A stretch of DNA of 64,000 bases, taken from NCBI GenBank assembly GCA_030141605.1, contig JAQGDQ010000191.1, forward strand, positions 62,001 to 126,000, written 5' to 3'. Origin of the DNA: Tubiluchus corallicola. Taxonomy: Eukaryota; Priapulida; Priapulimorpha; Priapulimorphida; Tubiluchidae. The position numbers were made by a program, and so were the translations under genes. Shown here in pieces: positions 22,560 to 59,944 of the stretch. Below the pieces are notes generated by a model. That model did no database searches and had not been told where the DNA came from. It saw only the letters and a program-made list of their open reading frames with translations. The first letter of the stretch is position 1; each line of letters starts with the position of its first letter.

Positions 22560-23467
22560 GATATGGTAATTTGGCACCAAAGACAACTTGGGGTCGGATT
22601 CTCACAATGCTCTACGCAATCGTTGGAATACCCATAATGCTCTTGTGTTTGGCTAACATTGGAGATGTCCTCGCTCATTCGTTTAAGTACCTTTTCGCCA
22701 GTACGCTCCGTGTTATTCGACGTTGGAAGATACGCAGAAAGATTCGCAGACATGCTAACCGATTTCGAATGCTGGCGATGCGTAAAAAATCCGATAATAT
22801 CAGGACTGACACGCCTACTGGAAATGACGTCACTCAGTCGCTCAACAACCCCAGTAACATTGAACTGGAAGTGATAAAATCAAATAATCAAGAAAGTAAC
22901 TGTGGCGTAAAGGTTCCCGATAAGGAAGATGAGGATGATGATATTGATATCAGCAAAGTCACAGTGCCGGTAACTCTGTGTTTAATTGTGCTTGTAGCTT
23001 ATGTCTGCTTAGGTGCACTTATTTTTGCTGTATGGGAAAAATGGTCATTTCTAGATGGTGCCTATTTTTCCTTTATTACCCTCAGCACGATAGGTTTTGG
23101 GGATTTTCTCCCCGGTGCTAGTATGGTGGCTAAAGGAGCAAACGCCCAAACTAAGTTAGCAATATGTGGAGTTTATCTTCTCCTTGGTTTGTCTCTTATA
23201 TCAATGTGCTTTAATTTGGTGCAAGAAGAAGTCGCGAGGAAGGCCAAATGGTTTGGCAAGAAGATTGGAATCATTGTCGATAAAGAAGAAAGGGAAAAGA
23301 AACGACTAGAACAACTTAAGAAACAAGAAGCGGCGACGGTCGCGGCATCTAGTGGCAGCGTGCGAAGTGATCTTTATTGGGTCCAAGGGCAGGCGGCTTC
23401 TGGAGAAGTTTCGTCCTCAGATGACAAAATTGATGAAGCTGAAGCATTTGAAGTAACAGAAACGTAA
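22560..23467 (+). CDS. Terminal exon of a two-pore-domain (K2P, TWiK/TRESK-like) potassium channel
   Basis: Encodes the C-terminal two thirds of a K2P background potassium channel, a plasma-membrane dimer that sets resting potential. The exon opens after a pyrimidine-rich acceptor ending in AG (22558-22559). Its first two bases complete a split glycine, giving the GYGNLAP end of the first selectivity filter. Counting that glycine as residue 1 of about 302: M2 spans about 14-39 (MLYAIVGIPIMLLCL), then a basic cytosolic loop of about 95 residues with an acidic stretch (DKEDEDDDID). M3 is about 137-159, the second pore helix and TIGFGD filter about 162-182, M4 about 200-221, and a charged tail follows to a TAA at 23465-23467. 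The APKTTWGR and VGIPIMLLCLANIGDV strings are typical of the invertebrate TWiK group and vertebrate KCNK18, which also has a large M2-M3 loop. No PQIVID-type calcineurin site is visible in the loop. The upstream M1/P1 exon is not visible in 1-22.5 kb. Confidence 0.95.
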
Positions 23468-24160
23468 ATTACTACCGCAACGTCATAACTGCCTGAAGTG
23501 ACTTATTTTACAGCCCCAGCACGCCATTGAATTAAAAATAATTATGACTATGGCACATTCTATGTTTGCACATATCTCTTTTATAGACACATACTCTTAT
23601 AAATAGAAACATGCATCATTTTAACATAAAATGGATCGAGTAATCATGTCGTTCTTATATTTATCAACCGTGTGGATCCACTGGATCCTATTAAAATAAT
23701 TTTTTACGAGCGTCTACAAAAATGAATATTTCGTGTAAGACGAAATCGCAAGAAAGAAATCGCAGTGGAAGAAAAACCGAGCTTCAATAACTTGAATTCA
23801 TCTGGTTGTCTAATGTTACTTGTTGTTTAATCTAACATTTATATTTAGTTGTTAAAAAATTTATTTCGAATCTTCGCATCTGTGTAAAATCATCACTGAT
23901 AATTACTACTGAATCATAATTTCAACACATTATCGTATCAAATGCCTCTGCAAATGGCTAACAAATTTTGAAAGTAGGCCAATCAGTTTTTCTGTAAGGT
24001 AAGATCAGAACTGAGTTGTGTATACAAACGGTTGTATTTCTTTTTGTGATTCCTTACGGTCAGTAAGGATTTGTTTGACGTGACATCTGTATTGTATTCA
24101 TCTGTATTGAATACACAGTCATGTATTCACTGCTCCAGTCACAGTTTAAATAAAACACAA
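23468..24160 (+). other. Probable 3' UTR of the upstream K2P gene
   Basis: AT-rich sequence following the K2P stop codon. An AATAAA hexamer at about 24149-24154 is a candidate polyadenylation signal. The true 3' end cannot be fixed without transcript data, and AATAAA is common by chance in such AT-rich DNA. Confidence 0.35.
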
Positions 24161-27100
24161 AATTTGATTTTAGATTTCCATTGTTCTTGCATTTCTTTCG
24201 TTTTGTTACAATAATTATTTTTCGCTCTAATAGCCTACTCAAAGGAAGGCTATATCTGCAGTGCCAAGGCTAATAGGATTAGTAAGAGTACGCATTTTTA
24301 TTCACTTTTCAAAGACGTTTACTTATCTCTAGTTTCTCAATTTTTATTTTTTCCAAATGACTTATCAAAACCAATAAAAGCAATACTCTGCAAAAATTGC
24401 ACTTTTTGAAGACCTGCCCTAAGTAGTAAAGGAAGTGAAAAAAATCTTATAAAAATGTTAGTAGCTTGCAAAGTGCTGGGCGTTTTCTCTTATTATGACC
24501 ATATAATTAAATTCAAATCTTTAAATGGGAAACCCAAAATTTTTTTTAAACAATTGTAGCTGATTCTGCACATATTTTACATACAGTACAAAATTCAAGA
24601 ATGACCAAAAATTTCCTTTATAATGCCGGATTGTGAATAAATGTAACATGCAAAAATGATGGCAATTGAAACGCAATGTAAATATCGTTTAGATTTATTT
24701 GACATTAAATTTGCTACCATTATTCATGCATGTTTATCAACCTCTGCTGGCTTCATCACAATGTGTTTTTATACCGTACCACGTGACCAGCTTCCTCGCA
24801 AAGCGAATCATTATCATACAAGATTAATTATTCTTGCACCAAGATCAAATATATTCAGCTAATTACTATAACTAATTCGATTCAAACAAATAAATTTGCA
24901 AATTGATGCGAAATGTTGCCTGTTTATGCTAATGGGGTAATCCTGATGTGACTGTATGGTTATTTCAGGCAAGATTAAAGTATGGTTCAAAAAGTGATTG
25001 GATAATTAAAACTAATCAATAGATTAGATGCCTAAAATAAACAGAAAAGAACGCATTGGAGGGCGGTGAGTAAAAAGAGAAACAAATTGAAGCATTGTAG
25101 AAATGCACCTAAAGTTTTGCCATGAAAAGAAGAAATCCGAACAATTGTACAGCAAACACATCTTTTGGAAAAAAACATTTTGTTTATTTTAAGATTCAGA
25201 CGAAATAAAAGTACTTCGGCAATATCTTAAGTGTCAGTACAAGGTCCATCAAACAGCATTTCTGAGCAACTAACAGATTATTCGTTGTGAGTAAAAAATT
25301 TGGTTCGGAATACAAAGGCGTTCTTTCTAAATTTTGAAAGACGTGGAACTGCGCAGAAGCTGCTTGCTTTTCTCTTGCATGATTTCTGCGTAAAATAACA
25401 GCAACTGTTGCTATAAATGTTGATGTTTTATAACATTTAGAAATGTTATTATATAGCATTTGACTTATCGAAAGTTTTAGCGTTTTCTCTTGCAGTGTAG
25501 AGCTACTCCTTACGTTTTATTGAACCTAGTTAAAGCGTTCGATTCATTAATGTTTGATCAAAACTCAGCCATCCGGTAGCCTAGCTACATTCTTCTGGAG
25601 TTTAGGATGTGTGCTGTATTGTATTTCGTAATATGCAGAGTATTTACACAGCAAAAGAAATCAGAAAGCTTGAACAACGCGTTTCTCCATTGCGACTCGA
25701 ATTCAGTACTCATTTTAGCGAAGGAAAAAAGTCGACCCAGATTAATCAAATAATTAAAACTGTTCAGCTTTTTATAATTAAAACGCTGCTTCAATGGCTC
25801 TGATTTCACAGACGATAAAATAGCTCACTGATTCCTGAATACATTTATTTGTCAAGCTGTAAACAAGCTCCTGTTATGATTAATAGAGTTCTGAGCCTAG
25901 ACAGATACACGGCCTTTGAAGCCCACCGCCGGCTTTTATTTATATACGCAGAGACTTTTGGCATGGCTTCAACTGGCAGAGGAGAATTAAAAACGGTTCT
26001 CGTCGTATGATGCTAAGCAGACCTGTCAGAAACCATGTAAGCGCTTCCATGTATACATGACCTTTAATTAGTAGAAGCATTGCTTAACCACACCAGAAGT
26101 TGAAAACTAGGGAGCACACAAAGGTAGTGTAGACCGACGTCCCCACATGAAATCATTATAGATCAAAAAATTGTATCACATGCTGTGTAACATTGCCATA
26201 GTATGTAGGTGACAATACGCCCTACATCCTACTATGCATTTTTACCTTGTGACCTTGACCTTTAAGTTTTGAATCAAGGTTTCGGGGTCTTGCCTGTCCG
26301 TGCCAATTGTGTTGATTATACTGCAGTTTCAAACTTTTGACCTTAAGTTTTGATGTTGAAGCCTTAAAGCAAGGGATTTCTATCCCTTGCCAGGACTTAG
26401 CTCTGCGACCAGTTTGGTTATTATAACTTCATCAGTTTTATATTTTATTATCCGGACAGACACACAGACGGACAAAGAAACACACACATCCTCAATTATC
26501 TTGGTGTTGCTTTTTTGTCTGGTTTTATGCAACAGAGAAATTTCGTCATGAGTCAGCCCAGCACACACAGTTCGACACGCTTTTTAGATTCAGGTACTTA
26601 AATCTACAAGTAACGTGATTATTAAGATATAAAAGCATCTCAAATTAAGCACGTTGATTTTGGAAAGAATTCGCCTCACTCTTCAATAATTCCTAGTTGT
26701 GTTTCAGTTGTTGCCCCTAAGCACAAAATATCTGCCACTTTTTATTCTCTGGTGCAAACCACACCACTCAACTAAAAATAGTGAAGGAATCAGGAAGATG
26801 TTCATGTTTTTCAACCGAGTCATCTTCCGACTTTAATGTTTTTGGAATCATTCTTATATGGAGTCATTTGCATTATCTGTGCAAAATGAAATTTATTAGT
26901 TTTGAGAAAGCTATATAAAACATTAATCTAAATAATATTATGAAACGAGTTACAAATCGAAAGCGACACAAACTCAAGTGTAAGTCGTAGTACTATATAC
27001 AGTTGCGCATTATTACAGAAAGAAAACTCTGATATTCGCGTCTAAGCTTTCAAGATTATATGCCATCATTATCATCTTATAGCTGCTGTATTATAGCTGA

Positions 27101-28249
27101 CCTTAAAAGAGCGGTAATAGTTATGTTTGCTCACGTGTCGAAGCTTGCGAGTTAAACTCATTCGCTGATTTTGAAGAGCTTTTTCATCTTTCTGCAAACA
27201 ATTTGAGACAAATTGTGAGATGTGGACATGTAGTGGCAAATGCTAATAAATCTAATGCTGCTGCTTTATAGCCAGCAATTCTAAAGAGGTCTATTTAGTT
27301 GTGTTGTAAAACGGCCGTAAACTGGATAGAAATTAAAAATTCTTCTCCGTATCAAAATTTAAACGTGAACTTTTGTCAATGACATATCAAGGAGGTGAAC
27401 CCAATATATACGCTAATGTATGTATTATATGTGCCGTATCTTAATACATGACCAGACCATAACATACCATGAACTGATGTGTGCCTGAATGCGCCCGTAT
27501 TTGTTACTATCTTCACACCCGTTGAAGGTAGACATTAGAAAGTGGTCAAAATCCTACGAGAGAGAAGGGTTTGTGAGCAAGAAGAAAATCGTGTACATTG
27601 TATCCCCTATCAGCCAGTAAAGTAGACGGAGTTCGTCAGCATTGTGTTACTATTTTTGATGCCGAACGTAGGTCACTCCACTTGAAATCTGTTTGTTGTG
27701 TTAAAATCACGAGGAGTTATTTTTTATAATTGTTTGAAATCTCTTAATACCATATTGCATTTTTCGCTGTTTTTGTTTGTTAGTTTCTATTTGCGCATTA
27801 GTCAAACATTTCCCGGTGCAATATCTACTGTTTGAGTAATATTACTTGTTGTTTGTTGACGGTGAGCGTAACATATAATGAAAGTATGTTGTAAACTCAT
27901 GTAATACATTTTGCATTTTGCATAATTTTGTTATAGATCGGAACTCAAAATTGACTGTACCATTTTGTAAAAAAAATTAAGGTCAAATACGTATATATAT
28001 GTATATGTCAAGATATCGTTGATGTATATATTATATATGATGTGTGTATGTATGTATTATATAAGTGAGAGCATTACACACTTGATACATAATAAGTTGC
28101 AATCTGGCACTCACTGGCTGGGTCTACTTAAAGTGGATGGAAGTAGTGAAACCACAATCTAACTGATGATATAAGCGGTGATTTAAAATGAGGTATTGAG
28201 TACTCAGCCGGCAGAGGTGTCTTAGTTGCATTCAGATGTGATTATATCA
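24161..28249. other. Intergenic AT-rich sequence
   Basis: Apart from the GGTCA-type repeat at 26.2 kb and simple TA/TG tracts near 28.0 kb, nothing recognisable was found on either strand. Open frames are short and lack domain features. Confidence 0.45.
26230..26360 (-). repeat. GGTCA-type dispersed repeat
   Basis: Contains TTGTGACCTTGACCTTTAAG and a second TTTTGACCTTAAG, with CCTGTCCGTG between. The complementary AAAGGTCAAGGTCAC phrase is widespread in lophotrochozoan genomes (known generally, not searched here). It also contains tandem AGGTCA nuclear-receptor half-sites, which may be incidental. Confidence 0.6.
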
Positions 28250-28362
28250 GACAGAATCAGTATGGCGAATGAAATCGCCCACAGTCACTTAGTGCTCACT
28301 GACCACTGACCAGCCTCGGCGTTACTTGACTTCGATCACGAAGACAATTCGGCTATTTCCTC
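28250..28362 (-). mobile_element. Diverged copy of the 53.1-53.6 kb repeat family
   Basis: Shares AGAATC.GTATGG.GAA.GAAA.CGCCCA and C.GCCTCGGCG....T.ACTTCG with 53510-53625 in the same order and orientation, including the AATAGCCGA head. Only this 5' portion is recognisable. Confidence 0.55.
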
Positions 28363-30699
28363 CTCTGACAACAAAAATAATATATGAATATGAAGTATAT
28401 GAATGGACGTGAAAAGGTCTAATGAAAGGTCAAGAAGCGGTGATAAAATATCTGAAAATAGTTTTGTCTGTAGTGAATCACTGACTACTACTGAATTTCT
28501 AGAAAATTAACTATTTAATAAAGTTACAGAAATTAATGAAAGTTGTAGAATTAGGAAATGAAGATGACAATTTTTATTCTTGTTTTAATGAACAACGTTT
28601 CTTTGCTTTTATTGTAGAGTAATGATAGAAAACTTTCCACACTTTCAGTCAGGCGTTTTTGCATATTATAGTATTAATTTACATATTTGCGCATAAAACT
28701 TTTGTAAAATTTTACTCCACAAGCAACTTTTTGGTATTAATAACATTTTTTCATTCTTAGGCAATTGGCTCTACTGTGACGTTAAGCTAAAATAATTTTA
28801 GTTATCACAGCCTAAATGTAAAGTCGATGAAGCCAAGGGGTTTTCAGCCATTGGCTATGTATTACAGTAACTGATTACTGTAAAACAAGAGGTTGCTAAA
28901 AGCCATAACCCGGCCATTATTATGGCACCATAGCACCTTACACGGATGTTGAATAATAGTTCCGCTACAGCAATACAACGCGAAATTTCATGGAAGTAGC
29001 TCGGACAATTTTGCGCGTGCGCGGTATCAGCAGATTCATCAGACCAGAAGGCAGAGTTTAGTAATGGTTTCTGCTATAGCTTCATGTTTCGCTTTGGGAT
29101 ACAGATTATATGTAAAAGATCACAACTGTTAGTGAAAAAATTCTCGACTTCAACTAATTCACTCAGGAATTTCAACAGGGCTGACCAACGTGCGCGTGAT
29201 GATGTAACCGAATTAAAAAGTTTTTAACTTACACGAAATTTGAGTTTTGTGTCGCGTTTGAGTTTCAAAATCGTAATCCTGATGCGACTAAATTCCCAGT
29301 GATCAGCATGTAGATGAAAATGAAATCGATAACGTTTTGCGATAACAGTGTCAGTACTCACAGGTCTAATTGCCACGTAGAGTGTTTTATTGGTGACTAA
29401 AACATTTTCACCCGAGTGGCGAGACAAAATTATGGTAAGGTATTTTGAATCTAAAAATTTCGAGTGAAATATTTGCCGGAATTATCATTTTTGTGGTTCT
29501 GACGGTTTTACACATTTTGCATAACAAATTTTCAGCTAATTATATACACGTTATGTTGTTTATAATTGTGGTTTGTGACTGTAATTAAGATAATGATAAA
29601 TATGATGCAAGGTTTTGAAATCAAACGCAATACTAATATTAATTTCTAAATTATTAATGGATATTGACGTCATCGTACGTTGCACGTTAAACAATTTTCT
29701 TCAATTTGCAACTTTGTATGCTGTTGCTTGTGTATTGTGTAAATAGACCATAATAGACCATACAGACATTCTTTGAAAAGTCAGAAAAGAATTACCATTC
29801 TCCTAAGCTTGATAATGCAAATTTGTTAAAGACGACAACACATTGGCTTTTTGCAATTGAACAACTTTTCAGGCGAAATTTTCAGTATAAAGTGTAAAAA
29901 GGGTTGTTGCTCAAGGTATGGTTCAGAGTACATGCTCCAGGGTTATTGTATCGAATTCATTTTTTTCAAATATGTAATTACTATTAAGAGAAGAATCCAA
30001 ATTCAACAGAACAAAGCCATAATAGAAAAGCAGTAGTTTAAGAAGGATAAGAAGCCCTCGCCACAAATGCAGTGCTGTGAACCTGTAGCGCACAGGGAGC
30101 AGATTTAACCATTGACTATGTTAGACAGATATGAGTAAAACAGCTTAATTGCATCTTTACAGTGCGATATAATTATTTATACATCCAGTAAGCCCATAGA
30201 TTTAGAATAAAGACACCTGATGTCCTCGCAATTTGTAGCCATATTGGAAACAGTCGAATTAAAGCTTGCTGACCAGCGATCTTTCAAACTCCTTCCATTA
30301 TCAGGAGGTAATCAATGTATCCAGCCGAGTCAATTATTGTTTGGTTTCGCAAGGAGTCGGTAGGGTAGCGAGATTGTTCCAAATTAAAAACAAATTATAT
30401 ATACATTTTGATAGGCTTGTGCTAGTGGCAATGTGTTTACTTGCGCTACTACCTGTAGGTTTCTCATTGTCACTGTCAATAGATCGGTAGAGTGGACACA
30501 ATAACGCCTTCATTTTGATTTCATGTAACTAGGTATAATTCTCTTTGCCACCATTGAGGCTGCTTGAGGATGACCAATCTGAAGTGTCAGGATTAGTCAA
30601 ATTTTGCTGATCTATTCGATTTTATTCCAGGGTTAGTAGTTCAATAAAACATAACTTCAGACTGTTTAACTCACCACAGCGTCTATCTAAGTGTGCATT

Positions 30700-30800
30700 T
30701 TTTCCGATTGATTGTGCTTTAACTAAGATAAGAGGTCAGGCCTCTTCTGTTACGTGGCTGAGGTTGTGCGTTCATATCCAGTTTTTGCTACAATTTTTCG
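30700..30800 (+). mobile_element. Possible tRNA-like SINE head
   Basis: A B-box-like GCGTTCATATCC lies at 30768-30779 with a tRNA-like 'GTGGCTGAGGTTGTGCG' lead-in. No good A box is visible. It lies about 100 bp before the telomere-like array, which could be its tail or an independent repeat. Confidence 0.25.
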
Positions 30801-30874
30801 GTGTCTCTTCCTTAATTAATTAACCGTTAGCTAATTATTGTCAGAATGCTGTTCCTTTTATGTGTTATGTTGCG

Positions 30875-31020
30875 CCTAACCCTAGTCCTAACCCTAACCC
30901 TAACCTTAACCTTAACCTTAACCTTAACCTTAACCTTAACCTTAACCTTAACCTTAACCTTAACCTTAACCTTAACCTTAACCAAACCCTATCCCTAATC
31001 TTACCCCAACCATAACTCTA
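30875..31020 (+). repeat. Interstitial telomere-like array (CCCTAA then CCTTAA)
   Basis: Begins with CCTAACCC units, the canonical animal telomere complement. It then has some 13-14 uniform CCTTAA units to 30983 before decaying into ATCCCTAATCTTACCCC. It is internal, so it is a fossil fusion, a double-strand-break repair scar or a repeat tail, not a chromosome end. Confidence 0.85.
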
Positions 31021-31869
31021 ATTTTAATCCGCTTCACGAACCAATTTACCTGGTATTTACCGAGAAAATGGCCGCCAAATAATCCCAAATTCTTTAACGT
31101 TAAAAATTATAATGAAAATCAGCAAACAGCTAAATGACCATAATACAGTACGCTTAGAGTCACATAAAAGTTAAAAGACAAAAGTCGATATTGTGCCAGT
31201 GCCCAAATAACGATAAGAAAGTATTGAGATCTGACACCATAAAGAACTTAATGTCACTGGTTACTGGATGGATCCAGTGTGTTTGAGAGGTGTTTTTCAA
31301 GTTATACAGTATATAGGAATGTCGCTTTTTCTTTGGAGACTGACAGACCTACCTTTTGCTATTTTTAAAGTTGAAACTAACATTACATGAGGTAATGTGA
31401 GCCGACTGTGCATAATTCCGCCTTATTAACTTTTTTCGTTCTTGTAGTTTTATAAATAGATTTCATCTAGAGAGTAGGTTTCGCAAAAAGGGAATCGTGG
31501 GTTAGAAACATTACCGATGTGACTCAAGAAGCAAGATATGTGAGTCCTATAATGCTGGTTGTCATGAATGTGGGTCAGGTTGCATCTGAGCCACGGAGTC
31601 TACTGCGTCACGTGGGTAATAAGGGAAATGTTGTGATCCATTTTTAAACTTCATCATTGTTATAGTTATAAGTGTAAAATTGCCTTGAAAGCTCCTGGCG
31701 CATTAAAACTGGTGTTTAATAGAGCAGGGTGAGTTTTTAAGCTCCAAGATAAGTGACAAGTGCCCTTAGAGACATTTTCTTAGCCAACAGAGATAACTTT
31801 GCTCTTAGTTGTAGACTTAAAATCTCTGTCCACTTTTTTATCCTCTGGGAAACGCGTTTTGTCAATAGT

Positions 31870-32040
31870 TTTCTCGAGATTTTTCCAGTGGATGGTGGCA
31901 GTGACGAAAGTGGTGGTATTGGTTATAGTGGTGGTTATAGTGCGGTGGCGGTTTTCGGTGGCGATGGTATTAATGGTAGTGATGTTGGTGGCGCTGGCGG
32001 CTGTGGTGTTGAAGGTGGTAGTTGTTGCGGTATCGAAGTA
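31870..32040 (+). repeat. Imperfect GGT/GTG-rich trinucleotide tract
   Basis: G/T-rich degenerate triplets that open a 117-codon Gly/Val-rich frame (31753-32106). Composition, low complexity and lack of splice context argue against a gene. Confidence 0.7.
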
Positions 32041-32859
32041 AACTTACAGATGCTCTACCTGAAGGAATTTCTTATAATGACACTGACGTATGCTAGTTAC
32101 GTTTGACAACGTTATATGTAGAGGTGTATAATAATCATGATAAATTTCAAGATGACTGTTGCGATTAGTATTTATAATAGTAACGACGGCGTTGGAGGCG
32201 GGGATGGTGTGATATAGGTTATTTTGTTGTCTGACGTGTGACGTAGGCTTAGCATTAAACACAAATGGCGGTCGCGTCTATGGTGATAAGGTGCTCGGTT
32301 CATGGTTATGACATTCATGTTTAAGCGCTAAATTATGAATAACGTGCATTAGCGTCAAAATCATACGCTGCTTTGAGCATAATAATTATCAAAATTAGCG
32401 GATACAGACAGGTCATTTGATTAATTATTCGCCGAACTCATCACTAATTCAGCCAAGTTATCGCTTACAGTTGATTCAATTAAGAAAGGGCGCTAACAAC
32501 ATGGATATTTACTTACTGCGCCGCTCCATTGGTTTCTCTAGGGAGCTAATTTAGTCATTGGCGTTGATGTAATACCATGGATCTTGATTAGTAGTCCACA
32601 TTTAATAGGCACATTGTGGTCAACTGTTGCTTGACTTTGAAAGTTAATCGTCGCAGAATTTGGTTAGCTACGCCGTTTTTTCTTACGTACCATTTTTAGG
32701 TTAACAGGTAGGAAACAGGAAGCGTTAAATTGTTCAGTCAGTGGTTTTACTTTTTGATTTTTGCTAGGAGAGCGAGAGTAGTTATAACCTTTTTTAGAAA
32801 GTTGCGTCCTTCTGCTTTATAAGTCACATCTGGTTTCAGCTGATGTAATTAAACGCGTT

Positions 32860-32945
32860 CTCAAATATTCAGTCCCATCCCGAACCTCGTTCCCGAAGCT
32901 CTCGTTCCCGAACTTTGTAAGTTTATAATATTTAAAAAAACAAAG
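32860..32945 (-). repeat. TTCGGGAACGAGG-type repeat, copy 1
   Basis: The reverse complement reads AAGTTCGGGAACGAGAGCTT and then GGAACGAGGTTCGGGATGGG, matching the plus-strand run at 59225-59345, including the ATTATAAACTT lead-in. Confidence 0.55.
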
Positions 32946-33361
32946 TTTGCTTCAGGTTTTTGAGACATGTAGAAAAAAAGAGCCATTTGTCAAGTTATTC
33001 ACAACTGCATAGCGTAATTATTAACGCTATTTAATAAAAACGTCGTGTAAGTATTTTAGTTAGTTTAGTTTAAACTTTATTTATTTATAGTGGATTTACG
33101 AAACAGACTGCGTCTGATACAGGTATCTCCACGGTGCAAGTCCTGAGTGCAAAGTGCTTGTAAAAGAATAATGGGCATCATAACTAATAATTATCACAAT
33201 TCGATAAAACAACTGACTCAGTTACAATCAGCGGATGGTGATTAAATTCACATACATGAACAATATAAACACAACAATTTAAAGTCTTAGCATGATTATC
33301 TTTTCGCGGCACGGAGAAAGAGACTGCGTTCAGGCATCTGTAAGAGTGACTAAATTGTTAT

Positions 33362-33362
<1 letters not shown>

Positions 33363-33426
<64 letters not shown>

Positions 33427-33436
33427 TGCGTGCGTG
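33363..33436 (+). repeat. Compound (GT)n-(GCGT)n microsatellite
   Basis: A GT run followed by about seven GCGT units, with one imperfect unit near the end. Such alternating purine-pyrimidine sequence can adopt Z-DNA. Confidence 0.95.
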
Positions 33437-33997
33437 TGATTTACCAATAATGTTGGAACAATTTGCAAAAAACATATAAAAGAATCACAACGTTTTACAA
33501 AAAAGGTTTTCTCATTCGCCCAGCACATAATGCTACTTAGTCAGTGTGCATTATTTTTGTTTTCAACAAATATTTAAATTCATAGCAAAGACATTATTGT
33601 TACGTTTACTTTACATTGCTTAGTGAAGTATACAGACGCTCACGTCAAGTTTTGATTACTCAGACATCAAAGAGAAATGAGGGAATGCACTTATTTCCCC
33701 GTTTTATTTGTCTTCACTGTAAATATATGTTTTGGATGATGTTACGTTTTTTAGCTATGTTGTATGCATATCAGTGCCGAATAAATAATAAATAAAACCC
33801 TACTACTCGAGAGCAAGCAACTTAATTAGGGTAATTAATGTATTTATTACCTGGCATACTGCCACGCAGTGTGTGTATTAGTCGCACATCCTCATAGTCA
33901 GGATTAGAAAAGTCTAGACTTTTTTCGTCCAGGATTCTGTACTCGCCTATAATAACAGCTGACAGGACTAATTTCGCTCTAATTTTCGGGGTTTAAA

Positions 33998-34022
33998 GAT
34001 TAAAGGTCAAGGTCAAACGTTT
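33998..34022 (+). repeat. GGTCAAGGTCAA fragment
   Basis: A short isolated TAAAGGTCAAGGTCAAACG phrase of the same repeat class. Confidence 0.4.
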
Positions 34023-35739: not shown

Positions 35740-36084
35740 TGAAGATCCTCCAATTTGGCCGCCATTTTCAATATGCACGGCAAGGAGGCTGGTGCTAGCA
35801 TATATGGGCGACATCTTAGCTGTTAGTGCAGATAAGATGATGATTTTAGTGTGTAAATGTAGTTTTCAAGGTCAAGAAATCCACATCTGATGCTTAAAAG
35901 CACATATGGGATCACATATCTAGAATTCGAAAGTCATCATCCTTTCTCCAGTAGAACATGCAAAACAGCTAATGCATTATGGAAACGGTCTATGCAGCCG
36001 TATTTTAAACCTTGTTGCCATCTTTTTGGGAACCTTTAAAATGGTGGCCATATTGAATATTAACCCAAATCCTTGATTTTTAAA

Positions 36085-36178
<94 letters not shown>

Positions 36179-37146: not shown

Positions 37147-37336
37147 GAGTGAGAGAGAGAGAGAGAGAGAGAGCTGAAGCGGGAGTGGGAGAAAAGGGTA
37201 CAGGAGAGAGGAAGAGGGAGAGAAGATGAAGAGAAAGACGAAGAGAAGCTGGCTAAAAGAAAGAGAGAGAGGCTGAAAGTAAGGGAAAGGGACAGAAAGA
37301 AGGAATCAGAAAGAGGAGGGAGAGAGAGAGAAGGAA
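37147..37336 (+). repeat. Purine-rich (GA)-type tract
   Basis: Imperfect GA, GAAGA and GGGA units for about 190 bp. All-purine strand. Confidence 0.9.
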
Positions 37337-39133: not shown

Positions 39134-39255
<122 letters not shown>

Positions 39256-43748: not shown

Positions 43749-43778
43749 AACATGATAATGATGATGATGATGATGATA
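43749..43778 (+). repeat. (ATG)n microsatellite
   Basis: A short run of ATG/GAT triplets, possibly the tail of an unrecognised retroelement like that at 53.1 kb. Confidence 0.85.
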
Positions 43779-45949: not shown

Positions 45950-46337
45950 CTAGAAACAGGGTTCGTATCCATTTTGATAGTGATATCTATCGACATTCTT
46001 CTTGAATCGAGTTTCTGCTAGGTTATACTTAGAGAAGCAATTTTCTGGCAGCGAATTCCACAGATCAGAAACCTGGGAGAAAAATGGATTTATAAGTAGC
46101 TGTTCTACATCTAGAAATGTTCAAGGAAAGTTATAAGAAGCAACAGAAGAAAGAGTGCAATGAACAAGTAGTCGCCATGTCGCCATCAGCGTTTTGAAAA
46201 CAGTAGTGATAGTCCTAAAAGCATCTTCCAGAGAGAAAAGACGCTTAATGAAGCTGACGATGAGAAAGCGGCTGAAAGTATTCTGAGAAGGACTTCGAAA
46301 CTTACTCGAATGAAGTCATACTGCAAAAATTTATGAA
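45950..46337 (-). pseudogene. LINE C-terminal remnant (SDLWNSLP motif)
   Basis: Read on the minus strand, this segment gives an interrupted frame containing FFSQVSDLWNSLPENC, then a short basic tail to a stop at 45952-45950. The 'LWNSLPENC' string with preceding hydrophobic/basic text is the conserved end of many LINE reverse transcriptase ORFs. At least one in-frame TGA (about 46118) interrupts it, and no upstream polymerase domain is visible. It is a decayed fragment. Confidence 0.5.
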
Positions 46338-47630
46338 AAATGTAAGTCAAACTGCATCTGCTAATATACAGGTAAAAGCAATTGTACAGTGGCGTTTGAC
46401 GTTGTTATTGTCTCAATCACAATTGCAATAATACTCCTTAGTATGTACTTATATGAACAGCTGGACACTTACACCCCCAATCGTCGTTTTATCCACCACT
46501 TCGTTCAACCAGCCTGTCTGCCATGATCACACATTTTGTGTAGGGCTTTTCCACGCAGCGAGAACATTAAAAATCCGCGGGCTGTTTTTTGCACTTAGCC
46601 TCATTATCTGCTCTGGTATTTTGAGAAGTACCCCCTCAATGACAAGTCGCCTTTCCGATCGACTAGAAGTTTGTCCAACTGGACTAAATGTAATTTGAGA
46701 TGTTAACTTGCCATCGAGGCCTCACGCAGTTGATTTTATATGAAGTCATGCTGGGGTAATTATTCCATTTTAATCTGAGAATGAAACCCGCACTGAATCC
46801 GCGCCACACACTGACTATCAATCTAAAATTCCAGATACCAGGAAAATCGGAATGTAATTGATTCGAGGATAACAAAAGAAAAAAACCCGAAAAATCCCAC
46901 CTTTTAAAGCTCCGTTTACGGCTAGCGTCATAACAATATATATGTCAACGTCACCAAGTATTTAAAAATATAACAGAATATGGCTCACATGTGGCTAGAT
47001 TTGGCGTGAAATTATTCATTAGAGAGAGCCAAAGCCGTAAAATGGTACAATTTGGCATGCCACAAACTGAGATCGAGCATTCAGCGGCAGGCCATAATTA
47101 CTATAGTTGGTTGAGGAGGGACCGGAACGAAAGACTGGTTTTACACCCTATTCGCTACTTAGGGAATTTATTTGCAGATGCTAATTACTAGTCATGTGAG
47201 AACCATAACAAGTAATAATAGCCCTCTTTCCGCAAGTTCCGCATTTCTAAATATATTATTTAAAACAATGCTCTATTTTATTCATGCTCACATGGCGCCA
47301 TCATTCATTAAAATGAGCGTAACTTTACATGATTTTACTAATTATACAGTTTGTACCGGATTTTTATTGCTAAAATTTTCTAACTTTTGCCCGAATATCA
47401 TAATGCGCCCAACTTCATGAAAGCCTTAACATTTTCTTTGAATAAACTATTGTAATTCGATAATGTTGTTGCATTAGAGGTACCGTCTTTGTTTATATGT
47501 ATTAAATCTTTGCTCACAATAGAGAACCATAAGCTTGATAAGCTATTAGATATCTAATCAGTACAGCGTAAAACGAGTGTGAGCCAAGTTCATATGTAAA
47601 TGCGTCCTTCCTTAGTGAGGGAAGTGGCTG

Positions 47631-47722
47631 GATCAGTATGGCAAATGTAACCACAGAAAACCGTCAGCGATCACTCATACATTTATTAACTAGATCAGGT
47701 GTTGCTCAACTTCACAGCCAAG
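47631..47722 (-). mobile_element. Weak third copy of the 28.3/53.5 kb repeat family
   Basis: Shares the GATCAGTATGGC.AATG core and a following TTGCTCAACTTC block, with insertions and substitutions between. It is strongly decayed. Confidence 0.3.
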
Positions 47723-49371
47723 CGTACATGTCCATGCATGCAACCATTCTCAATAAAATTGTTTTAGTAGGAAGATAAAACTAAGTTAACAAAGTATCAT
47801 TGAATATGGTACAACTGGACCAAACTGACAATTTTAGCTGCTATCATATAGAAACCCACAGTACAAACACCGTCATACAATAAAACAATGATCGAATATT
47901 AAATTCTATATTGCCGCATTGTATAAAATGGCACCAGTGGACTATTAAAACTGCAATTAGGAATTACAATTACCCAGAATCGGACAGGCAATGTGGGCAG
48001 AACTTATTTGAAATGTTAATGATAACGTGACCTATAAATAGCCGAGTGGGATTTGCAGATTTAAGTGTATAACTGAAGCACTGCAGCTACTAAAAGCTTG
48101 TAGAAAAGTCAGTGATTATTTTAATATAGACTAGTAAAGTATTTGCAAACATAAGCGATTATAAAAACCAACAATGTTTAAGCGTGAAACAACAAAAAGT
48201 TATAGGATATAATTTTACGTTTTCCGATCGCTTATTGACCTCTGTGACCGTAAATGTACTTGATTTCTTTCTTGTCTGTCATGAACAGTTTTTATTCTCA
48301 CAGCATACAGTCGATACCTAACAAATCTAACTTGCTAGTTGTCGCAACAAGTCATAATTAATTCAACACTTGTTAGTACCTTAAAGAGGTAGACTTACAA
48401 GTTTAAAGTGAGTTAATTTTTGTTGCTCGGAAAATTTTGTCTCAGCTAGCAACACTGTTATTGTTATCGTCGTTCCCGTTCCCATTCATACAAATATTTT
48501 TGTTAAAAGGCAACTATATGAGACTGTTGTCAGTCAGTGTATGCTCACATTGTTCTATGAGAGCTTTCTGCACAAATTTATTATTTATTTCCTTTATCTG
48601 GAATTTAATATTCCCCGCAGTGATGTAACATTAACCTTTCTACAGCCAACCTTCCAATTTTTTAGACTATGGAAAAAACGTTAAGGTCAAGATGACGGTA
48701 TTCAAAGACATTCCCTCGCAAATAAAGTGGCAAGTCTATCACACAGTTCCTAAAACTATTTCTGTGTTTGTTATTATTTGCGCCGGTTGCCGTCATGTTT
48801 GTCTGCATAACGTTGCGTATACACCACTAGTTGGACTAGCATCAACAATTTACATTCAGTTACACAAATAGTTAGTTTAGGCTGAGTTTTGGTCCCATTG
48901 AGTATTAGCGATGGTGTGCATGATAAAAAGCGCCAAAGGGAGAACCGCCATGAATGAACAAAGCGGAATCATTAATTTATCTGTCGACATATATATATTA
49001 ATCACTTGCAATCTAATAAATTAGAAAGCCGTTGTAGAGTCAACAGTACCCTGAGCGCAATATCAGTCTTTTCAATTAGTGTTGATCACATCTTGTCTCT
49101 TGTGACTTTACTGGTTACAAACTGATTTTGCAGTACCTATAGTATTCTTTAATTGTTTTGAATCGTAAAACGTACTGGCGGATGTTATCTTCAGTTTTTC
49201 AATTTTAATTAGTACTTGATGGATTGTCAGGGCTACTAGATGTTTTGAACGCTGGACACACACCACACATTTTACAACTGAAATCGTGCGTAAGACGATT
49301 TCAAAATTCCATTGATTTCGAAAACAGTAACAATATTGTCAGTCGAACGCATGCTTGATAGGTACTTTTTA

Positions 49372-49553
49372 TGGTTCGTTCAGACATAGAGACTTCTCTC
49401 GTAACTTGTTGCGCAACTTCTCTCTGAGAGTGTAGTTGCAGGTGTAAACGACTTGGCAACTTCTCTCGTGACTTACTGCACAAGTTAACTCTCAGCAGCT
49501 CTCGTTGAGTTTGCAATAAGTTGTGAGAGAAGTCTCTACGTCTGAACGCGCCA
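49372..49553. mobile_element. MITE with about 40-bp inverted termini, TTA target duplication
   Basis: A 182-bp element. Its first 40 bases (TGGTTCGTTCAGACATAGAG and onward) are the near-perfect complement of its last 40, with about five mismatches. Both sides are flanked by TTA, a 3-bp duplication typical of PIF/Harbinger-type elements. Internal copies of an AACTTCTCTC motif in both orientations give a strongly foldable interior. No coding capacity. Confidence 0.75.
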
Positions 49554-50079
49554 TTACATTGCTCAAACGGCTTCCGTTGTGCGTGAGCACCTATGGCATT
49601 AATAAGTAAAATGCTGTCTGGCAATAATGCCTATAGCAGAACAATGAAGTGGTTGCGAAGCACCTGAAAGCGCAGTAGTGTGGTTTGGTTTTAAAACAAC
49701 GAAATTTTAATCTTCTTTGTAGATTAAACAGTTGGTTGGTATCCGATAGCAAGTAAATGTTCTTGCTGTATACAACTACAGTGCATAATCTTCTATAGAA
49801 ACCTTTCCAACGTGGGGACATTTTTAACAGACAACATCGATTTTTGGGACGTTTATCAATTTCTGGTATATTTTGTTGATTTGAACTAACAGTTTGTTCT
49901 CAGATGTTTTCAGCTAAGAGACTGCTACAAAATGGTTCACTATTTTGGTGCTAAATAACTAGCTATAATGGTATGTTTGTGTTTGTACCAGTAATTACAG
50001 TACAGAAATGTATTGCAACTTTTGTTGTATAGTAAAGGTAGAGCAAATTTTTCTTTGGGCGTCAGTAATCTATAGTCCA

Positions 50080-50285
50080 GTCTAGTCCTCGCCTCGTCTC
50101 GCCTCGCTTCATCGAGTTGTATTGAATCGAATAGTATTCAGTCCCATCCAATCCAGCTCACTCCAGTCTAGTCCAATCCAATCCATTCCAATTCAATCCA
50201 ACCCAATCCAGTCCAATCCAGTCCAGCCCAGCCCAATCCAATCAAATTCAATCGAATACAATCCGATCTAATCTTAACTAAAAAG
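50080..50285 (+). repeat. Degenerate pentanucleotide array (TCCAA/TCCAG type)
   Basis: About 200 bp of 5-bp units: CTCGC at the left, then TCCAG, TCCAA, CCCAA, and ATCAA/ATCGA at the right. More decayed than the 16-kb satellite and with a different unit. Confidence 0.85.
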
Positions 50286-52556
50286 CTAAAACTAAAACAC
50301 TGCGTCGACAAACGCGCATGTTTGCTATTTCTTAGTGTCAAACTCAGTGTCTGTAAAGGCAGCGTCTACTGTCTCAGTGTTTACGATCTAATAACCTCAA
50401 CCTCAGCACCTGCAACCTTAATCACCGTAACGAGTAACATTAAAGTTATGATGTTTTATGCATTTTTCTTTCCATTTCACTGTTAATCTGGCAAGCAAAT
50501 GCTGACAAACATTTTAGTTTTTTCAGATTCTGCTTATACGCTGATATGAATACTTGCTAGGGCTTTTAACGAAATTACCAAAAACTCGATGCGGCAAAAA
50601 AGATGTTATCGTTCCACTCCGATCTGGAAACTGACAACAACAGGCACGGAATAACAAAACATCATCAGCCGAAACGTGCGGTTAAGTAATGTGTTTTGAA
50701 AAGCAAAGCAAAAATTTGTAACGAAACTAATAGAACTGTGCAAAAAAATAGGCTTGCAAAAAAGCAAATGCTGTTAGATAGACGCATTTGCGGACAATGT
50801 TATTTACAGAATAGTTTGTGTAAATAACAAACTCGTGCAAGCAAAAACCAAAATGAGAACAGGACCATTAATTAGGAATATTTTGATAACCCATGCAAAG
50901 TGCATTTGCCTGGGTATTAGCATGGATAAAAGCATATGTTTGGGTCTTAGACCTGACAAAACTGCGGTTATGTTGTGGTTCGAACGCAGCAGGTATTGGC
51001 TATAACAACCCAAACACAAACCAGTTGTTTTAAAGTCTTGTGGATGGTACATAATTTAAATGTGGGTTCACAGAATCCAGAAAGAAGAAAACATAAGTTG
51101 TGCGTCAATAGGCTGAAATGCTTTAAGAAGAAGTCAACATATTCTTAATAGCAACACAAATAACGTTTAAATAAATAGCCTGCAATAAATGAAAATTTGC
51201 TAAAGACAAAAAACTATTCGTGAGGAATTAGCGAGTAGTTGAAGCGACGTGTGTACACGTACAAAAATGGAAACGTATAATGTGTAATAAATAAAATGGA
51301 AGCAAATTTCTTTGTTGTGAACTATTTGTATAAATACTGAAAAACGTGTTTAAAAACGTGAAAATCAACGTAGAAAAATGTCTGAGGGTGTTAGATGTCT
51401 CATCTCACATATTTTTTAAAATAAAAATGAATAAAAAGAATTGCATTGAGCGGTTGGAAAGTTGAGAAAAATTTAAAAAGAAAATTAGAGGCATCAAAGT
51501 GCATAGGGACTTCTAAGACATCCTAACACTCATTTGCATTTTTTGTCAAGTTGCGTCACAATACGTGTGGTAATGCAAGACTTGGTTATACTTCTTGGAA
51601 CATCAGTTTCACAATTTCGCACCACGTTATAGCCTCCTTGCCTTGGGCTTCACCTAGTCATAGCGTCGATTACTTAACGCTTTCAGTTTACATTCCAAAA
51701 CGTTTTATTGGATTGGTGATTAATTGGCAAATATTTAACATGTAACTTTGGTGTACTGACAATATTCGCTGTCAGTTGTAACGAAGCCTGTAGCAATTAG
51801 ACTTTTGTTACTTTCTTGACGTAAAAGCATATACTCCATCTGGACAACCTCAATCGTAAGGATGATGCAAATACGTACATAAATTTTAAATTTACGTTTT
51901 ATATAAAAACCGTGTTTTTCACCGGTGAAATAACCCTGAGAAATTTGTTTTAAACTTATTTAATGTTTACTTTTTGCTTTCCTAAGCACGTGGCAGCTTT
52001 CTCAAATTTCTTGTTAACTCTTTCATAGAAACAATAAAAGCCATTGTCTTCTCTGTGAGTAAACGTGCGTCTTATCAGATTGCCTATTAAGTTTTGACAA
52101 ATTTTGATCTTTACCAGTTAACTTATCGCTTTTTACTAACTTATTATCCAGTTAATATCCAGTTATCATCGTAGATAACAATTGTGTAGCCGTTTTCCAG
52201 GAAACGCTTCCAACCACTTTCCAACGTATTTGACCAGTGTGGCTTCATCAGCATTGAAAGCTATAAACTCTACAAATATTTAGTTTTTCAGTTTTTTTCC
52301 TAAGAAATGAAACCACGAGAGATACTGTCTTTTGTGCAGTTCGTGAAGTATGACAAGATGTTTAGTAAGCGGTAGAGCTCATGCTTCTGTTATAATAATG
52401 TACTTAAGGCATTTTGTAGTATTTATGCTAAACCATTAGTGAATCTTTATGTTTTAAACCTCAATGACTGTAAATAGTAAAAAAATCAGATGTATCGCTA
52501 CTTTCGGAGACAAAACTGGAAGTTAACTTCTCAGCTGAATCGTACGTGAAGCCAGA

Positions 52557-52661
52557 ATCTCCTTTCACCATCTAGAGTGCTCGTTTCCTCATGGACTACT
52601 TCTAAGGATTCTTTAGAAGTAGATTATGAGGAGAAGAACAAACCAAATGTTGAAAGGAGAT
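52557..52661. repeat. 105-nt imperfect hairpin
   Basis: Outer stem ATCTCCTTTCA pairs with TGAAAGGAGAT. An inner stem CCTCAT pairs with ATGAGG, and CTACTTCTAA pairs with TTAGAAGTAG around a 7-base loop (GGATTCT). Internal bulges lie between. The architecture resembles a pre-miRNA or a decayed MITE. Expression cannot be judged from sequence. Confidence 0.55.
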
Positions 52662-53116
52662 ACTTGTATAGGAAGCCTAGAGTCAGGCGCAGTTCCGTCT
52701 GGCTCTGCTGCTTGATCCGTTTATCGTCCGCTACTGTCGATCTTCACAATTTTTAGTACTGTGGTGCAGTTTCATTTAGCGATGTGTCGTCCTTCACCAA
52801 ATGTCACTGTATGTCATAAAACATGTGTTGTGCAATCTCGCATAATATGCTTGCAACTATTATCACTTTCTGTAACTTCACCATTTCTCACAGTTTTGTT
52901 CAAATTGTCATCAGCTCAACTCAAATGCTTGATCGTATTACTGATGGCGCCTCCTTTTTTCTGTAATCTTGGTAAGCTAATTTAATTAGCTTCAATTGTC
53001 ACTGCATTCAACTGCAATGGTGGTAGAACCCTCGCATTTCTGCTAGAGCCTGCTACTGATCATCACTGAAACCTCTGAAGCCAGACATGAGTATTTAACA
53101 TGTTTCTTGAATATAT

Positions 53117-53640
53117 GATGATGATGATGAATCTTTTATTACGCCTCTATGTGCAGGCTCAATACAACAATAATTAAAAATGAAACCATGTGCAGACATT
53201 AGTGACACACATTAATAAATGCATACAATTACATAAAAAATATAAGCAACTGTACAAATTATATACAAATAAACAAATGCGTATGTACAAACAGATACGT
53301 TAGGAAGTACAAACTATATACAAATCGTCACCCTATTGAATATATTGCAAATATATATATTGTATTGAACATTAAGCTTGGAAACTAACTTTCAACTGCA
53401 GGACCTTGGCAATGTGGATGCTTGCGGAGAGACCGGAGCCTGGCTCATTATCAGGGCTGAGTCTTTAAGATGAGCTACTGTGAGTGTTTATCCATCAACG
53501 AGGTAAAGTCAGAATCGGTATGGAGAACGAAACCGCCCAGAGACAAGTACTAAACCCAGGCAGTCGTAACTGGCCTCGGCGCTCCTCAACTTCGGTCGCA
53601 TAACACGCACGTAATCACTCGGCTATTCACCCGCCTCTTG
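53117..53640 (-). mobile_element. SINE/short retroelement with (ATC)n tail
   Basis: On the minus strand the 5' part starts AATAGCCGAGTGATTACGTG (A-box-like) at about 53627. The body includes GCGCCGAGGCC and GGGCGGTTTCGTTCTCCATA, and the 3' end is GTAATAAAAGATT followed by ATC repeats at 53132-53117. Diverged copies of the 5' half occur at 28.25 and 47.63 kb. The head looks tRNA-derived but its B box is degraded. A 141-codon open frame overlapping it (54011-53586, minus) is probably fortuitous. Confidence 0.5.
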
Positions 53641-56600
53641 AGTTTGTCAAAAAATAACTCGCGATTTTGGAATTTGGCTAAGCAAAGTGAGCACGTGTTT
53701 TCTGACTCCGCATTATGGAACAATGACGCAAAACTTGCAGATTGATCAATTAACGACAAGGCTTCAACGTGTGAAACATGTGCATGCATGAAGGAATTGA
53801 GTACTTTGCTTGTAGTTGTAGGGCGAGCATTCACTAATGCGGATATATGTATGCATTTGCGTCGTAGAGAGTGTGATTTATGTGTAAACGACTTCTGGTT
53901 AACGTAGTTTAACGTTGAGAAAATGAACGTAACTTTTGCCTCTGGAGTTAGTTCTGGAACTGTCCCCTTTACACGTCTTATTGTAACTGATGTATATTTA
54001 AACAAGTTCATAAGCTTTAAAAGTTGCTATATTTTCAAATAAAAATGTTTTTTGGAATCCTCAAATTAGTGACTCTGTATCAAGTTCAAAAATTACTTAT
54101 AATGATTATTTTTTATTTGGTTGTTCATTTAAATTGAATTAACGCTACAGAAGTTAGCTTAAAGGACAAGACAACTCTTTATTTACATTAAGATAAAAAA
54201 TGCGTCTTGAAATTTTGTGTCACTGATATGCTGACTTTACATTAGCAGTAACGCTGGGCAAAACTTGTAAAATATTAAACTCCCGCGCTGATCGTTGGAC
54301 ACAACCATTCTAACGGCCAGAAAATTAGTAATTAATTTAGGAAAGTTAAAATAAAACATTTAATAAAGCATTTATTAAACAAAAACATAAATTACTTTAT
54401 CATGCCAGTAAGATTAATATAGGTAGTACGTTTTTGGTGAAAAAGTAATATTTTTTGGGTCCACAGTAGCTGAATATTTTAAATTATGAAGAATTTTCTT
54501 TTCCAATTACATATTTTTTTCAAACCCAAAAGCTCAAGACTAAGTAATTGAAATTTATATGGAGAGTTTGTTTGGACGTACTTTAAAATTCATTCCCCTT
54601 TAAGTTTATTAAAATAACAACAACATGAAATCAGTAATTATTTGCAGCGAGATTCGTAAATTTCTCGGTCGCTCAACTCTGCACCAGTTGGCTTTTAAAT
54701 TCTAGGATAAAGTTTGCCTGAACTGACGGAATACTTGACAGAAGTTATGACAACATCGTAGTGGAAATGGAACTGGCTAATTCGGGTCGATAAGCAAGGG
54801 CATGTTGTATGGGGAGCAGACAAAACCTGATCACATCATCTTAGGCTGATTTCTCCTATGTTCTATTATGTGGCGCTGTTTTAGTGGTTCTGATTTCACC
54901 TTCAAGACCAACTTGTGTGTTTTTTACTAGTGTTATACTTTTCCTTATTTTGGCCTCTTCACCCAGATTGCATGGCATCTAGAACCGATCGCTGACGAGG
55001 GGAATTGATTAAGTGATGTGAGGAAACTGAATTTAATGGCGGCCGGTGATCAGTAATTTGGCTTGATGAAAATGGGACATTTCAGTTTGTAGACTCGCGT
55101 GGCGCTGAACCGAAATATTGTGGCAGGAAAATTGATTAGGATAATGAGCTCAGTGCACTGGTGCTGGTTTCATAACAAAACATAAAACATATTTCATCTT
55201 TACATATTTCGCGAAATTTTATTTCTTTGCGTAAAAATGACTGTAGCAATGAAATGAAAAATCGAAATTCATTCAAAACACGTTCTAAATTTATTTCAGT
55301 TGCTTTTCATTTTTCTTTAATTATTGTAAATGCGGTAAGCATCACTGACTGTCAATGCTAAATTTCATAGTCGAAATCAATGCTAGCAATTCCTTTCTCC
55401 CGAAAAACCATCTGTTAAAGACCTTTAGACAGGTTATTTAGTTTCAGCTATAGGTAAAATAATGGTCAACCAAAAAGGATTCAGAGTAATGTGGTGTAAA
55501 TGCGCAGACTGAGATAGATAGAGCAGTTGAGAAGGGACGCAAAAAAATCAAAAACAGTAAATGAACATAAGTATAAAATGACGACTCGAATGGCGGTTTG
55601 ATTTCATATGCACAGAAATCATATGCAGTCGGCTTATTTTGTCTTTATCAGTTTAGGTTGTATGACTGTGAAGATGTAGACATAGAGGTCATGAAAATCT
55701 GAGGCAAAGGTCACCTTAAAAATGTAAAATATTTGGTCCTGTGTGACACATGCGGTACGTTTGGCATATATTATTGCAATATGCCAGATAAGTATCCGAA
55801 AAATGCATGAAGCCTCATATCAAATCAAATTCAGAGGTTACCAAAAGATCAGCCAAAGCCGTCACCAAAAAGGTGACACTTTTGTGTAGGGTTCTACACG
55901 AATGTGGCTTAATGCTGCAGTGAGTCGGTCTACTTTTCCAATGTAGTTAATTACCAGAGACAGGATGAGCATCTAAAGAATTATCTAAAGCCATCTAAAA
56001 AAGTTATCTAGCACAAGTCACTGCGCAGTGTTCTTTTGATAGTAGGAAAATATCATACGCCACACAAGTTAAAATATGCAACCCTAATGTAATTCCAGTA
56101 TCAGATAAGTTATTCTGCTTAAAACAAACGATTCGGCCGATCTTCTTGGTCCGACTTTTTCTCGCCAAATTGAACTTTTCTGGTAGCCCACTCGACTTTT
56201 ACGCATTCTCCTTTGTACCCAGAGCAAACCAGTCACTTAGCTGGCCTTTTTGGTCGATGTGGTTAGATTTACCCACGGCTCTAAGAAGATATTTTCATAT
56301 AATTCAGCGCTTTGCAACCGTTGTCGGTGTAGCTGTTATTGTTCTCAGTGTTACCCCAGAGACCAGTGATAAGAAAATTGATGATATTTCTAGTTTCTTC
56401 ACAATAATCATTGATCACTCGCGGTGACGTATTGTGAGAAATACAAAATAAACTAAATTAGTGTATATGGTAGTACCGTCATTAGTGAAAACCGTAAACA
56501 AAAAAATAAATTGGTGAATACCGTGAAGTACTTAATTATTTCTCAAGCAAATATGAACATCTGTTTTACGCAGCTTATGTGGATGCACGGTATAGTCGTT

Positions 56601-58286
56601 TGATTTTCAGTTCTTCAGTATTCTTAGCTTAATTATATGAATATTAATAATCAAAACCGCACATAGCTTAATGATAGTGATGCTCAAAATTTTATAGTGC
56701 TTGTATCAGAGCGAGAACACTAAAATTGTATAGGTGTACTATTCTTACATATTAATTAACTTGTATTAATTAAGAATATTTAACTATAAGATGATGTTAA
56801 GTGTTGAACTGGTACTCGCACACCGTAGTTCTTAAATAGAATAAATACAAAAGTTCATTGAAAAAACAGCGGAGGAATGGCGAAGATCGATAGAAATTTT
56901 AGTTCCCAAACCAAATTTGGCTAAATGGCAGAGCAGTTTCACAAGGGAAATGTCAACGTAATGTAGTACTCAGAATTAAAGCATGTATTTATTCTAGTTT
57001 TGAGTAGCTAGATTTTCCGATTAATAAAATTAAATATTATTCGATGTATTATTTTTGTTTAAAAGCCGATTTTTCCACAACTTTGACAAATATGTGTCGT
57101 TAGTGAACTTTGAAGCCATGTGTTGTACACCTACTTGCAAGCACTACTAAATCAGCCCCTGATTCAATGTAAAACTACAAACACCACATGGGTTGATTCC
57201 GTAAAATACTAAACGAATGCCTTTACTTTGAATTACACACTAGTGCTAAAGTAATTTGGCATCGTTTTTGCTGCTAAGTTCACTTTCGCTGACATCGGGT
57301 GTAATTGCGACCCAATAAAAACCTGCTAACAGCGACGCGAAAACGTTGCAATTGTCAGAATGAATTACTCTCTGTTATTGAGTATTGACCGGTCTTGTTT
57401 TGTATGCGGTGTGTCAGGGTGTGATGGAAAGAAAATTACCACAATTTTTCGCGCATGCTATACCAACATAATTATTTTGCGTTTTTAGCAACCATTTTCT
57501 AAAATGAGTTCCTTATTTTATAGACATGCCATGAGTGAAGTGATAAAAACCTTGTTATTTTAATAGGCAGAATTTATGCTGCCGTACATTAATTAGCATA
57601 CATTCATGTAGTTAAAAAGCACGCAATCAAGCATACAGCTAGCATAAGACATTCATAACTTTTTTCCCGTTTTACAGATCGTGCCGCCTACAAAAAGAAG
57701 ATATCTATTGAAGGGACATCTGCGCTTAACGGTCTACAATGGCGATCTGGGCAATCAAGGAAGTGATATCTGAGCATTGCCGATCGATCAGAGAATTGAT
57801 TATAATTGCTAGCAAGGCTTGATTAGCGCGGGATATTAGCCAATTACTAGTCTCAGCATCGAATGTCTTAACCAAATCCACTTGTTTGCCTGCAAGCAAG
57901 AAAGCATAGCTTCTTATGACAATAATTATAATAACTTATATGTGAGTATGGCTTTGCCGAAGCCACAAGAAATGATGTTTAAATGAAGGCACGCGATTTT
58001 TTAATTTAATTTCATTTTTAATATAATTTTAATAAATTTTTGCCTTTGTGGTCTCCCTAATATAAAATCCTTACTGTTTCTTCACTATCTTCCAGTTAAT
58101 TTTTAACAGTCGCCAATTTTTGGGCTTTTTGGTATAAATCTGATGGGTAAGGGTATAAGAGGTCTTGACCTCATATTGGAAGCAAGCAATGTCAGTTAAT
58201 AAAAGCAGGTGACAGAACTATTTCCGGCAGTAGGGGTTCTGGAAGGATTTCGGTGTTAATCCTTCCTATATGTTGTTCCACCCAAT
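53641..58286. other. Upstream region of the second K2P gene
   Basis: Holds the GGTCA-type repeat at 55.7 kb and an unrecognised 93-codon frame (56146-56427). No TATA box or other promoter element could be assigned with confidence before the K2P start at 58287, and an untranslated first exon may lie here. Confidence 0.4.
55668..55895 (+). repeat. GGTCA-type dispersed repeat
   Basis: Contains AGAGGTCATGAAAA, CAAAGGTCACC and CAAAAAGGTGACAC in the arrangement seen in this repeat class. Diverged. Confidence 0.5.
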
Positions 58287-58710
58287 ATGATCCGTCGTCG
58301 GCGGAGCACCGTCTTTTCTGACCATCGTCATGAGCAGTTTAAAGATTACTGTAGAAAATTTGCTGCTTTTTGTTTCTCGCACATTGGCCTCTGCGGTCTG
58401 GTAGTGGGATACTCCATAATAGGAGCTCTAACTTTCCGAGCTTTAGAAGCTCCTTACGAAATTGTTACCCGCAATTCTGTGAAGAAGCTCCGAGAGTCGA
58501 CTATAAACGACCTGTGGGAGTTGACCATGGAGTTGAACGTTTTGTACGAGAAAAACTGGACCGAAATGGCCACGGTAAAATTGAAGGATTTCCAGACACA
58601 GCTAATAAAAAAGGTGAAGGAGGGATACGATGGCAAGGAAGAGGAGGGAAGGAATCAGTGGAGCTTCAGCGGAGCTTTCCTGTATTCTCTCACTGTGATA
58701 ACCACAATTG
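58287..58710 (+). CDS. First coding exon of a second K2P (TWiK-like) potassium channel
   Basis: Encodes the N-terminal third of a K2P potassium channel, 141 full codons plus one base. A short basic N-terminus (MIRRRRS) leads to M1 at about residues 31-53 (FSHIGLCGLVVGYSIIGALTF), where the SHIGLC and GYSI.GA strings are characteristic of the TWiK group. The extracellular cap runs from about 54 to 124 and has an N-glycosylation sequon at N90 (NWT). The first pore helix and filter start, WSFSGAFLYSLTVITTIG, ends the exon. The cap has no cysteine, so the inter-subunit cap disulfide known in some K2Ps is absent. The start is well supported: an in-frame TAA lies at 58257-58259 with no AG acceptor between it and the ATG. 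The donor is G|GTAAGG at 58711, phase 1, exactly complementary to the acceptor phase of the exon at 22560. The remaining exons must lie beyond 64000, or upstream if the assembly is permuted. Confidence 0.93.

Positions 58711-59427: not shown

Positions 59428-59944
<517 letters not shown>

Follow-up and report, generated by a model that had tools for sequence, protein, structure and literature searches.

K2P (two-pore-domain, KCNK-type) potassium channels share the layout M1-cap-P1-M2-M3-P2-M4, and in many animal KCNK genes the first GYG codon is interrupted by a conserved phase-1 intron. A literature search, which did not reach full texts, yielded nothing usable about where K2P introns lie or about K2P genes in tandem. 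The two genes analysed here, termed A and B, resemble KCNK4/TRAAK, KCNK10/TREK-2 and KCNK3/TASK-1 in their TIGYG and TIGFG filters and find their best PDB matches there (about 1e-26), although their sequences are divergent from those of these channels. Here we describe what are almost certainly, judging by the sequence, two complete and divergent K2P genes that follow each other head to tail, both on the plus strand, and of which the analysed DNA holds the end of A and the start of B. The window, i.e. the whole 64-kb stretch that was analysed, corresponds to positions 62001-126000 of the forward strand of C1935, a contig of 413 kb in a genome of 343.5 Mb. Its features are as follows.

1..22559, plus strand: 3' part of intron A (whole intron C1935:49877-84559, 34,683 bases)
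22560..23467 (C1935:84560-85467), plus strand: terminal coding exon of K2P gene A (reading frame, Pfam, phmmer, splice scan)
23468..58286, no strand: 34.8 kb from the stop codon of A to the start codon of B
58287..58710 (C1935:120287-120710), plus strand: first coding exon of K2P gene B (reading frame, phmmer, splice scan)
58711..64000, plus strand: 5' part of intron B (whole intron C1935:120711-156862, 36,152 bases)

The first-pass annotation had pointed out that a 3' half of a K2P gene lies about 35 kb upstream of a 5' half, and that both are cut at the same glycine. Re-reading of the sequence bore out the coordinates, plus strand, phase 1 and split glycine of both exons, and the gap is indeed 34.8 kb. 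In both exons the first Gly of GYG is split as G|GN. The exon of gene A is open from an AG acceptor (tttatttttag|GATATGGT) to TAA. It opens with G|GA TAT GGT, the rest of the first filter (GYGN), followed by M2, the loop, M3, the second pore with STIGFGD, M4 and the C-terminus. Pfam Ion_trans_2 matches it in 2 stretches with 93.9 bits, and on its own it retrieves K2P channels from the PDB (phmmer, 2e-15). The exon of gene B runs from ATG through M1, the cap and the first pore to ACAATTG|GTAAGG, so that its protein ends T-T-I-(G). Its pore loop is interrupted by the intron, and its Ion_trans_2 score of 18.7 bits falls below the cut-off of 22.5; alone it still retrieves K2P channels from the PDB (1.5e-4).

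The window was scanned on both strands for further splice sites of this kind by scoring the stop-free 18-residue stretches before each G|GT or G|GC as donors and the 26 residues after each AG|G as acceptors. The best donor scored 92, followed by 34 (the second pore of gene A itself) and 12, while the best acceptor scored 138, followed by 14. No second first-pore donor or acceptor was thus found in the 64 kb by a scan that a strongly divergent exon could escape, and the partner of either half is therefore not inside the window. No first-pore exon was detected in 1..22559 (splice scan; for 8001-22561 also Pfam, two of three plus frames), no partner exon in 58500-64000 (Pfam, one plus frame) and no further K2P exon in 23468..58286. 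This last stretch carries an interstitial telomere-like array at 30875-31021, in which CCCTAA grades into CCTTAA units. RNA families at gathering score and tRNAs were absent from the window, and no relatives were confirmed in viral contigs (both exons) or in genome contigs (3' exon only).

For the search of partner exons in the flanks, which the first-pass annotation had proposed, C1935:1-62100 and 125901-165600 were added to the window, giving a joined sequence of 165.6 kb. A PF07885 search of the organism's own genome placed a second K2P 3' half at C1935:156862-157482 (plus strand), 36 kb past the 5' exon of the window. With tblastn on the 165.6 kb (E up to 1), the 5' exon of B had, besides its own position, a single match at 49504-49878 (48% identical), and the 3' exon of A likewise had a single further match at 156862-157524 (43% identical). 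Both partner exons, at C1935:49384-49876 and 156863-157635, lie in the direction, on the strand and in the phase expected of tandem paralogues with a common intron position, as had been suggested. The order on the plus strand is 5' exon of A (49.4 kb), 3' exon of A (84.6 kb), 5' exon of B (120.3 kb) and 3' exon of B (156.9 kb), i.e. N-C-N-C. Since the window begins in intron A and stops in intron B, only the last exon of A and then the first exon of B are visible in it. The reversed exon order is an effect of the window limits and is ordinary.

Gene A consists of two coding exons separated by a phase-1 intron of 34,683 bases. Exon 1 (C1935:49384-49876, plus strand) lies 12.1-12.6 kb ahead of the window, begins with the ATG at 49384 and ends at the donor G|GTAAGT after 49876. 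The acceptor TTTTTAG|GA precedes 84560 and the stop codon ends at 85467. When spliced in silico, gene A is open throughout and encodes 466 aa. Gene B also has two coding exons, with a phase-1 intron of 36,152 bases. It starts with the ATG at C1935:120287, has the donor G|GTAAGG after 120710 and the acceptor TTTCAG|GA before 156863, and its stop codon ends at 157635. Exon 2 (C1935:156863-157635, plus strand; 94863-95635 in window coordinates, beyond the window) scores 62.5 bits with Ion_trans_2, and the spliced gene is open throughout and encodes 398 aa. Start codons are the first in-frame ATG in both genes, that of A being backed by an N-terminus conserved in a paralogue on contig C1985. The gene structure is one of intact reading frames and matching splice sites; one stretch within intron B reads N, so that the two B exons are continuous insofar as the contig is correct as it stands.

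The portion of intron B inside the window contains mobile-element relics. A 517-base element at 59428-59944 has perfect 14-base inverted ends CAGGGCCTATTTCA and, with its flanks (59420-59952), an 8-base target duplication GCTGTTGT; we take it to be hAT-like. It is nested in an older element that has inverted arms of 80 bases (59348-59427 and 60752-60831, 92.5%), and lies at the inner edge of one of these arms. A dispersed repeat at 60253-60528 has 85% copies at C1935:14306-14577 and 30849-31122 and looks SINE-like by eye, with an AATAAT run at one end and a tRNA-like box.

Spliced A and spliced B each carry both filters, TTIGYGN and STIGFGD. They match the K2P channels of the PDB better (KCNK10 at 2.2e-26 for A, KCNK4 at 1.1e-26 for B) than the 3' exon of A or the 5' exon of B alone, and all 40 matches listed for each protein (E up to 1e-12) are K2P channels. 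The first-pass annotation called the genes TWiK-type; in this ranking, which covers solved structures, KCNK4, KCNK10 and KCNK3 stand ahead of KCNK1. On these grounds, A and B are K2P potassium channels. By analogy with the family, each gene would be transcribed and spliced separately to give a subunit of a leak (background) K+ channel, and the subunits would be expected to conduct this current as dimers.

It was pertinent to ascertain if the exons at 49.4 and 84.6 kb indeed belong together. The paralogue on C1985 (261-267 kb, minus strand) is a compact K2P gene with two coding exons 4.9 kb apart in normal order. It resembles A in having two coding exons, the same phase-1 split glycine and the N-terminus MDKM-F-FKKVGTGK, but differs in its intron of 4.9 kb as against about 35 kb. 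Gene A is 57.9% identical to this paralogue overall (N half 61.6%, C half 55.2%), whereas B is 44.7% (N half) and 44.9% (C half) identical to it. Thus, A is nearer to the C1985 paralogue than to B in both halves, which is not so for B; this identifies the exons at 49.4 and 84.6 kb as one gene and shows that the 5' exon of the window (120.3 kb) does not come from gene A. This pairing by a closer relative was made for A only. For the 3' half of B, the nearest relative is a gene on C2081 (64.4% identical). A search of C2081:110.5-164 kb, in parts N, revealed no 5' exon of that gene, and the matches of the genome search did not include one either. The best other genome match of the 5' exon of B, among the matches listed, was 48% identical.

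These results bear on the proposal of the first-pass annotation that the assembly is permuted, i.e. that a single K2P gene has had its 3' half placed ahead of its 5' half. The phases of the two halves seen in the window do fit, and the assembly does have oddities, namely a mirror pair on contig C1102 and, towards the left end of C1935, a long inverted repeat. Neither of the oddities overlaps the exons of A or B. However, the contig supplies a separate, correctly ordered partner for either half, giving N-C-N-C, and both halves of A point to the C1985 relative while the 5' exon of B does not. Phase compatibility, moreover, was general to every K2P first-pore exon read, and therefore argues for nothing. 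We consider a permuted assembly extremely unlikely.

The survey on which this rests covered 28 loci (8 and 20, some overlapping, all inspected) from among 79 PF07885 matches in the genome. By motif pattern, all 14 distinct K2P first-pore exons begin AG|G-YG without TTI before it. The remaining loci, assessed by eye, were single-pore channels, further instances of the same locus, the C1102 mirror copy, the first-pore exon of which has the same AG|G-YG start, and one locus of which the second pore alone was covered. Because an ATA codon can also by chance place an AG ahead of the glycine, as it does in one Kv channel and in two second pores, AG together with loss of the filter sequence upstream was used as the criterion. 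On the donor side, six of six exons read as DNA end T-I-G|GT. A genome search with the 5' exon of B reached at least six places, and six of six end at query residue 141, which is the last whole residue ahead of the intron. The split glycine common to A and B thus carries little information and is unsurprising within this genome.

The oddities themselves may be described briefly. The inverted repeat at C1935:12475-32489, ahead of the window, is long and imperfect, with arms of about 7-8 kb whose pieces are 85-97% identical and with 86-87-base tandem arrays inside; it is either a large transposon or an assembly palindrome. At C1102:29.3-40.9 kb a K2P gene occurs as a mirror-image pair with identical match scores, which may be an artefact of the assembly. 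In the PF07885 search, identical matches on 2-5 contigs were also obtained for several other channel genes, perhaps uncollapsed haplotypes.

The other proposal, a tandem duplication of one gene, taken here as a recent event, whether real or an artefact, would account for adjoining K2P genes that are similar in layout and in the length of their introns. The comparison of the paralogues, also called for in the first-pass annotation, revealed two distinct genes: A and B are only about 44% identical overall (44.5% over the aligned length), with 43.9% in the N half and 44.9% in the C half, and are therefore not assembly copies of each other. When C1935:1-165,600 was compared with itself (E up to 1e-15; intron B in part N), introns A and B had no listed similarity, and what intron B shares with the sequence ahead of gene A amounts to repeats of about 100-280 bases. 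In addition, A is nearer to the C1985 gene, and the 3' half of B to the C2081 gene, than A is to B. The A-B split would thus seem to predate the A/C1985 and B/C2081 duplications, although a tree of 12 C-halves, with two of its nine inner branches well supported, is too weak to prove this: it joins B with the C2081 gene at 81/88 and does not group A and the C1985 gene with support. A recent duplication appears so improbable as to be nearly negligible, and we retain two divergent, separate genes as the explanation.

C1985 carries another K2P gene on the opposite (plus) strand, with a 5' exon match at 285.7 kb and 3' parts at 317-320 kb, which in the same weak tree groups with a gene on contig C1810 and not with B. 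The A-like gene (minus) and this gene (plus) point apart, as does another adjoining K2P pair on opposite strands at C1536:200.5-218 kb.

Since all K2P first-pore exons read split at the same codon, read-through or trans-splicing between A and B could conceivably give in-frame hybrid channels made of exon 1 of A and exon 2 of B, the junctions of the two genes being interchangeable in phase and position. Such junctions are, however, also found in unlinked K2P genes of the genome, and A and B each have their own matching exon. The two halves of A share their nearest relative, and thus no past swap of halves is seen in A. We regard such hybrids as very unlikely. Back-splicing, trans-splicing, permutation and recent duplication are not needed to explain the exon order, for which two K2P genes in tandem suffice.

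The oddity in exon order, and with it the suspected misassembly, is thereby removed. A matched splice phase between K2P exons is no evidence that they belong together, because all first-pore exons read in this genome have the same phase. For annotators, introns of about 35 kb mean that a single false gene model could come to combine exons of adjoining K2P paralogues.
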